NCBI GenBank assembly: GCA_021780195.1
Contig: JAJXZE010000007.1
Span: 1-48,789 of the forward strand
Direction of reading: 5' to 3'
Origin: a bacterium
GTDB taxonomy: Bacteria; Patescibacteriota; Minisyncoccia; UBA6257; 2-01-FULL-56-20
Length of the DNA stretch: 48,789 nucleotides
The notes under the pieces were generated by a model, which saw nothing but the letters and a program-made list of their open reading frames with translations, was not told where the DNA came from and did no database searches. The translations under genes were made by a program, and so were the position numbers. Each line of letters opens with the position of its first letter. Position 1 is the stretch's first letter. Shown piece by piece: positions 47,270 through 48,643 of the stretch.

Positions 47270-47310
47270 AAAAAGAAAAAAACGGCAAGCAAACTTTCGC
47301 TTGCTTGCCG
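47270..47310 (-). terminator. Rho-independent terminator downstream of the candidate RiPP precursor
   Basis: CGGCAAGCAA (47283-47292) / TTGCTTGCCG (47301-47310) with T-tract on minus strand. Confidence 0.88.
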
Positions 47311-47329
47311 CCTCGGTTATACGTCGCCG

Positions 47330-47482
47330 TTAGGCTTCGTAAGTGTCCTCTCCCCCGCAACTACTCTGCGTTCTGCCGAGATGCGGCGGACGGTTGGACT
47401 CGAGAGTGACGAGTTCACGTAGCTGGAATACCAGCGGCACTGACTCGACCGACTCGTTGGTTAATGGTTGAGTGTTTTCCAT
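47330..47482 (-). CDS. candidate graspetide (ATP-grasp RiPP) precursor peptide, 50 aa
   Basis: MENTQPLTNESVESVPLVFQLRELVTLESNRPPHLGRTQSSCGGEDTYEA*; AAAGGAG 10 nt upstream of ATG; terminator downstream; adjacent to MvdD-like ATP-grasp. Below the ORF-track size cutoff. Confidence 0.7.
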   Translation of the reverse strand: MENTQPLTNESVESVPLVFQLRELVTLESNRPPHLGRTQSSCGGEDTYEA

Positions 47483-47514
47483 GGAAACCCCTCTCCTTTG
47501 AAGGGCTATTTTAG

Positions 47515-47543
47515 ATGATGGGACATTTGAAGGCCATTGTCAA
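47515..47543 (-). promoter_or_regulatory. putative precursor promoter TTGACA-17-CATCAT
   Basis: Minus strand TTGACA (47543-47538), CATCAT (47520-47515). Confidence 0.4.
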
Positions 47544-47560
47544 CCTTAGCCACCACAGAA

Positions 47561-48550
47561 TCATTGCTTGGGAAATTCGGAAAGAATCTCATCAATGATT
47601 GCATCCGCAATTGGCATGCCGGTCAGCTCCTCTATCCAAAAAAACTGGGTAGCGGGATTCATCTCCAAAAAAATGATCCGACCATCCGGTGTCGCCACTA
47701 GATCGAATGAGGCAAGACGGATACCGTAATGTCGCATCATGGCAATCATCTGCCCACGCAACCGCTCATCAATGACATAGATTGAATGAGGAGTCTTATG
47801 GTCATAGTGGCGCCAATCGACCCGCGTTTGTTCCGCGACCTGTGAATCAATGCGGCAACCGAACACTTGCTGCCCCACAATAGTCACACGTAGCTCAAAG
47901 GCCTTTTCGATGTATTCCTGAAGACAAACCGGAGCGAGACAAATGGTATCAAAACGATCAAATATCTGCTTCGTTACGATGTTGGTATAAACCGTATAGA
48001 AGCCGCCCTCGACCTGCTGACCATATCCTCCCACGCTTTTGATTACTGCCGTTTCATGCAGTTCGACAAACTCCTTGGCACTTGCCGGATCGTTGGTCAC
48101 GATCGTGTCTGGAATATGGAAACCAAGCTTCTCTGCGATGGCTAATTGATCAAACTTATTCCGTCCATCGAGAATTTTGGTCTCGCAATCAAGAATGAGA
48201 CAATAGTTGCTCAGCAAATCGATGAGCCACCGGAGCGTAAAATCCATTTCGGATTCTGCAAAAACCCGCGCTTCGGCATTCTGAATCTGGTCTGCTTTCG
48301 GCCTGGTGAGCCGACGCAGCCACACCCCTCTTATGCTATCGATGGAGATACGCTTGTCTCCGATTGTAATGGTGGAGTCGAAAACACTTGGAAATCGCAA
48401 CTCAATGTTAGCCATTCCAAAGTCTTCGGCGTTCAAGCGGACATAGGGAATGTTCCGAGCGGCCATTCGATGGAACACATGATCCGCCGTTATATCATTC
48501 GTCCTCGTGACAACCAAGATGGACGATTCCGGTTTGGAATTGTTTTCCAT
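47561..48550 (-). CDS. MvdD-like ATP-grasp RiPP (graspetide) maturase
   Basis: ILVVTRTNDITADHVFHRMAARNIPYVRLNAEDF (preATP-grasp), GVWLRRLTRP, FAESEMDFTLRWLIDLL, NKFDQLAIAEKLGFHIPDTIVTNDP, LQEYIEKAFELRVTIVGQQVFGCRIDSQ, FDLVATPDGRIIFLEMNPATQFFWIEELTGMPIADAI. GAGGAGG upstream. Confidence 0.85.
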   Translation of the reverse strand: MENNSKPESSILVVTRTNDITADHVFHRMAARNIPYVRLNAEDFGMANIELRFPSVFDSTITIGDKRISIDSIRGVWLRRLTRPKADQIQNAEARVFAESEMDFTLRWLIDLLSNYCLILDCETKILDGRNKFDQLAIAEKLGFHIPDTIVTNDPASAKEFVELHETAVIKSVGGYGQQVEGGFYTVYTNIVTKQIFDRFDTICLAPVCLQEYIEKAFELRVTIVGQQVFGCRIDSQVAEQTRVDWRHYDHKTPHSIYVIDERLRGQMIAMMRHYGIRLASFDLVATPDGRIIFLEMNPATQFFWIEELTGMPIADAIIDEILSEFPKQ

Positions 48551-48613: not shown

Positions 48614-48643
48614 ATAGTAATATAATTAGACAATAATTGTCAA
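48614..48643 (-). promoter_or_regulatory. maturase promoter with perfect -35 TTGACA and overlapping palindrome
   Basis: TTGACA (48643-48638), TACTAT/TTACTA -10 candidates at 48620-48614; AGACAATAATTGTCA (48628-48642) 7-1-7 palindrome-like. Confidence 0.5.

Follow-up and report, generated by a model that had tools for sequence, protein, structure and literature searches.

What we know of graspetides in CPR bacteria amounts to predictions made in a single survey of 2022. That survey (Makarova et al. 2022, PMC8939145) describes graspetide loci in reduced genomes, in which an MvdD-type ATP-grasp enzyme is paired with a small precursor that has a leader of the type Phhx(1,2)h and a core that diverges from locus to locus; loci of branch 2 can also carry SPASM radical SAM enzymes. 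Many of the CPR loci came without a recognisable precursor, and the missing precursors, it was suggested, may be small proteins that gene calling passed over; the roles suggested for the peptides were host interaction, defence and the exclusion of competitors (PMC8939145). In known graspetides the nucleophiles precede the acids (PMC7823629).

The window (the whole stretch of DNA that was analysed, 48,789 bp) makes up an entire contig (C18) of a genome of 701 kb and 98% completeness, which its relatives place in Patescibacteria. The minus strand carries, at the right end of the contig, a gene for a 329-aa ATP-grasp enzyme with an ATG start (47561-48550), followed 78 bp downstream by a 50-aa ORF (47330-47482). 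Judging from sequence comparison and structural modelling, the two very probably make up a minimal two-gene, single-enzyme graspetide biosynthetic locus, and the genome has one copy of each gene. The initial annotation had called RiPP biosynthesis unexpected in a CPR-like genome; this part of it has to be withdrawn, and the kind of locus is not novel, because CPR graspetide loci have been reported (PMC8939145). The core fails the microviridin pattern TxKxPSD, the plesiocin repeat TTxxxxEE and TxxxTx(6-10)Dx(1-4)D, the last of these the commonest signature of the CPR loci, reported for most, not all, of branch 1 (PMC8939145). As in branches 1 and 2, we find an MvdD-type ATP-grasp together with a small precursor, whose residues P16-L-V-F-Q-L21 fit the Phhx(1,2)h leader, and a divergent core; a difference from the surveyed loci is that the window locus has no visible peptidase gene. 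The locus fits the survey's suggestion of precursors overlooked by ORF prediction, and unless the survey's supplementary tables already list it (PMC8939145), the precursor/core family that it represents is new, although its kind is known.

Outside the CPR, the closest solved enzymes belong to the microviridin and chryseoviridin systems (MdnA-MdnC, CdnA-CdnC), which share with the window a VP-hydrophobic, helix-type leader; the genuine leader of Nostoc microviridin resembles that of the window (ETVPFFARFLEG vs ESVPLVFQLREL). The window locus differs from these systems in lacking both the TxKxPSD core and a C39-ABC exporter, and in having one enzyme and not two. Plesiocin and thuringinin, which are single-enzyme, ester-only systems, likewise combine one ATP-grasp with two core hydroxyls followed by acids, whereas the window has a single core in place of tandem repeats and no TTxxxxEE, and its enzyme is closer to MdnC and CdnC than to the plesiocin enzyme PsnB. 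The thuringinin core begins TxxTxxxE, and this would fit the T38-S41-E45 spacing of the window.

The enzyme had been described as an ATP-grasp of the MvdD/graspetide type, a description borne out by HMMs, a PDB sequence search and the predicted fold. It matches TIGR04187 (220 bits), the MvdC model TIGR04185 (180 bits) and the MvdD model TIGR04184 (175 bits), in each case below the curated cut-off, and scores above the gathering threshold for the MvdD pre-ATP-grasp domain (PF21068). Its nearest solved relatives are CdnC, MdnC, AMdnB, MdnB and PruB (CdnC and MdnC at E about 1e-38). An AlphaFold model from a 32-sequence alignment (pLDDT 90.8) has CdnC (7mgv) and MdnC (5ig9) as its top Foldseek matches, with a TM score of 0.84 against CdnC with leader and core peptide; when folds are ranked, the CdnC-leader/core and MdnC-MdnA complexes come out best, followed by PsnB, and RimK is worse (0.64). 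K132, K171, K216, R221, D245, R247, D283 and N298 are among the residues that are invariant over 32 relatives, and E296 is nearly so. By these profile and model comparisons the enzyme is an MvdD-type ATP-grasp peptide maturase, and a putative graspetide macrocyclase, that belongs with the macrocyclases of peptides rather than with a family of small-molecule ligases.

A search of about 1,100 genomes, most of them from Patescibacteria, returned only two close relatives of the enzyme, in G146 (64% identity) and in G255, Candidatus Azambacteria (43-46%). Near each lies an orthologue of the 50-aa peptide: MDKPTCEQTPLVFQLRELVLPGSEREAYLHMTQSSCGGEDAFDGE in G146 (L054:4593-4730, plus strand; E = 3.2e-10) and MSEDDLDHSEYYSEEPLMFQLREFIEERPGEAYMSKSTGTAGREDDYDD in G255 (E = 0.08). 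The ORF is thus kept beside both of the nearest enzyme relatives, and the recurrence of the enzyme-peptide pair in two distant relatives shows that the peptide is encoded by a genuine gene. The graspetide claim of the initial annotation has therefore withstood two of its three refuting conditions, an ATP-grasp that groups with non-peptide ligases and a 50-aa ORF that is not conserved. When the window is compared with G146, 13 nucleotide differences are counted across ten codons of the leader and nine of the core (TQSSCGGED), all of them synonymous third positions, and 0 of 20,000 random placements of 13 changes left the amino acids unaltered. Leader codons P16-V25 have five synonymous and no nonsynonymous codon changes in this comparison, while the stretches before the leader and between leader and core drift freely. 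Over their whole lengths, dN/dS is 0.37/2.05 for the precursor and 0.25/4.0 for the enzyme, both rough ratios because dS is saturated. Among the 36 small ATG ORFs of the window that have a good Shine-Dalgarno sequence, nine carry a loose leader motif, and the 50-aa ORF is the only one to combine it with a core-like C-terminus. The pattern of substitution and conservation indicates that the 50-aa ORF is a real gene under purifying selection. An ORF directly downstream of the G146 enzyme (MMFGSVERV...) was considered as the precursor there and dropped; the true orthologue is on the opposite strand, about 730 bp off.

Alignment of the three precursors places the putative recognition helix at codons P16-V25 (PLVFQLRELV; 47408-47437, minus strand) and the core at codons T38-A50 (TQSSCGGEDTYEA; 47333-47371, minus strand). 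The leader block PL[VM]FQLRE and the core block [ST]xx[ST]xxxEDx[YF][DE] are kept in all three; P16, L17, F19-E23, G43, E45 and D46 are invariant, and in every sequence positions 38 and 41 are hydroxyl-bearing, position 48 is aromatic and position 49 is acidic. The leader proposed in the initial annotation (from P16, LVFQLRELV onward) is backed by the invariance of PLxFQLRE and by a strict P-hydrophobic pattern, present in 29 of the 39 precursor candidates gathered at related loci (most others are near-misses), a count that is descriptive and not a test because the candidates were picked out of ORF lists by eye. The earlier choice of ring residues needs trimming: the candidate donors T38 and S41 and the candidate acceptors E45, D46 and E49 are conserved in all three orthologues, whereas S40 is kept in two and T47 is not conserved. 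Hydroxyls stand before acids in this conserved set ([ST]38 and [ST]41 before E45, D46 and [DE]49). Across 21 precursors tested, the window-type core pattern, which was derived from the same three sequences that it describes, is limited to the three clade members, while seven other Patescibacteria precursors have TxxxTx(6-10)Dx(1-4)D. Structure prediction for the precursor is of low confidence (pLDDT 65, pTM 0.15) and does not establish a helix in the leader.

Going by what is known of the family, the segment around PLVFQLRE would fold as a helix and dock on the enzyme and, by analogy with MdnC, CdnC and PsnB, the leader block would both recruit and activate it. The enzyme would use ATP to phosphorylate the core carboxylates of E45, D46 and E49, and the hydroxyls of T38 and S41 would attack the activated carboxylates to form side-chain ester macrocycles. 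By this analogy two side-chain ester rings are probably made, and two conserved donors with three conserved acceptors suggest two rings that are perhaps nested; our best guess at the connectivity joins S41 to E45 or D46 and T38 to E49, for a mass loss of 36 Da. An unlinked protease would then cut off the leader and release a knotted peptide, which may serve as a protease inhibitor or as an interaction factor towards the host or rival epibionts. Characterised graspetides act as inhibitors of serine proteases.

Other explanations of the two genes have to be weighed against this one. The enzyme might modify the 50-mer by a different ATP-grasp chemistry, namely amino-acid or amine ligation or end joining, and not by side-chain macrocyclisation; related ATP-grasp enzymes do catalyse such reactions, amino-acid addition in the case of RimK, and the survey mentions guanidino-acid ligation and head-to-tail cyclisation (PMC8939145); the window enzyme scores under the curated cut-offs for MvdC, MvdD and SAV_5884. 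Its sequence and fold, however, are closest to the macrocyclases MdnC, CdnC and PsnB and not to RimK, and the residues conserved in the core are exactly hydroxyls and then acids, so that we judge another chemistry very unlikely. A housekeeping ligase like RimK or glutathione synthase, lying by coincidence beside a spurious ORF, would account for the Pfam RimK and GSH-S_ATP domains that the enzyme also matches, but these matches are expected throughout the superfamily, and the MvdD pre-ATP-grasp domain speaks against such an enzyme. The enzyme was absent from all 36 other genomes of the window's family in a first survey, and a wider survey of the order added one further family member with an enzyme, which falls outside the window clade; a gene so distributed is not a housekeeping gene. 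The orthologues under purifying selection refute the spurious ORF, and the combination is extremely improbable.

It is also possible to suppose that unlinked enzymes modify the peptide further through C42 or Y48, for example by a thioether or thioester. The window and G146 share C42, several other candidate precursors also contain cysteines, and SPASM radical SAM enzymes can occur in CPR branch-2 loci (PMC8939145); against this, the residue is Ala in G255, for which reason C42 was dropped as a conserved cross-linking residue, and no radical SAM gene was recognised on reading the stretches around the three loci. Such additional modification is unlikely, and a graspetide locus whose single enzyme acts on the linked 50-aa precursor is the reading that we retain.

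The layout of the locus agrees with the initial annotation as to the position of the ORF (same strand, downstream), its coordinates and residue numbering, the strong Shine-Dalgarno sequence AAAGGAG (ribosome-binding region 47484-47499, minus strand) and the terminator, an intrinsic hairpin of 16 pairs followed by a T-run (47279-47314, minus strand). Promoter-like sites, each a consensus match, precede the precursor (TTGACA-17-CATCAT, 47515-47543, minus strand) and the enzyme (TTGACA-18-TACTAT, 48614-48643, minus strand); since chance alone would put about two such sites in the region, the one before the precursor is weak. A perfect palindrome, GACAATAATTGTC (48629-48641), overlaps the TTGACA of the enzyme's site and is a possible candidate operator; it was looked for near the G146 and G255 loci and not found. 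Because the contig stops 240 bp upstream of the enzyme, upstream partners of the enzyme could be missing. A short direct repeat, CATTGCACAGG, lies in this upstream stretch near the contig end (48670-48720), and an open frame with no Pfam match runs off it. The window locus contains no dedicated protease or transporter gene; searches found no C39 peptidase in the window genome or in G146, and a search for ABC exporters in the window genome found one full-length candidate, unlinked to the locus.

The enzymes of the window, G146 and G255 form one clade (support 100/99) although their genomes are spread over three families and at least two orders. Relative to the enzyme gene, the peptide gene of the window is downstream and co-directional; that of G146 is divergent and separated from it by a PF06821 serine-hydrolase gene; and that of G255 is upstream and co-directional, a TPR-like gene on the opposite strand intervening. 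Through this rearrangement the enzyme-precursor pair has remained linked in three Patescibacteria lineages that are only distantly related, and TPR or alpha/beta hydrolase neighbours are often found at the CPR loci as well (PMC8939145). The GC content of the window enzyme gene is 48%, against 60% for the window (in G146, 49% for the enzyme and 48% for the contig), and this GC deficit relative to its contig suggests, as the simplest account, that the gene entered the window lineage by lateral transfer. With the single enzyme as query, genomes and viral contigs yielded no related locus; a three-row enzyme alignment recovered only G146 and G255 from the genomes and nothing from the viral contigs, and the clade gained no further member when more of the phylum and of G255's order was sampled. 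The G255 enzyme frame (L029:1558-2439, JALTWS010000046.1) is broken by a single TAG some 20 codons short of its end, where its relatives have a tryptophan; we attribute it to decay or sequence error, the copies in the window and G146 being intact.

More widely, an MvdD-type enzyme is encoded in 22 of 246 genomes of the order and in 24 of 388 genomes sampled from the class, and most of these enzymes have a small Shine-Dalgarno-led ORF nearby. At one such locus (L009, G245), two different precursor-like ORFs (269-466 and 484-657, enzyme strand) lie adjacent upstream of one ATP-grasp gene, resembling the tandem paralogues of CPR branch 2 (PMC8939145). DUF6624 (PF20329) proteins adjoin several Patescibacteria graspetide loci (clearly at L008:3468-3935, L051:1691-2191 and L005:2412-2876, weakly at L011 and L036), and DUF6624 is possibly one of the unnamed associated families of the 2022 survey (PMC8939145); the window genome encodes a single copy, away from the locus on contig C6, and no precursor is evident next to it. 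MvdD-like ATP-grasp proteins also occur in a Leptospira phage (KF114876.1, 59114-60049; 33% identity to the window enzyme), where a 37-aa ORF immediately precedes the ATP-grasp gene, and in Bacteriophage sp. MT835913.1 (8836-9771; 31% identity).

The missed 50-aa gene, its three-way conservation and the synonymous-only pattern together define a short, fully specified and directly testable enzyme-substrate pair, and they point to a practical route to other missing precursors, in which both strands around the enzyme are scanned for P-hydrophobic leaders. We put forward tentatively that the three loci may represent a hitherto undescribed graspetide group, marked by a distinctive ring pattern ([ST]xx[ST]xxxEDx[YF][DE]), made by epibiont Patescibacteria and moved laterally as an enzyme-peptide pair, which would serve host attachment or defence or the exclusion of rivals. 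In the window clade, selection holds the leader and the core, and the spacer and the gene order vary freely.
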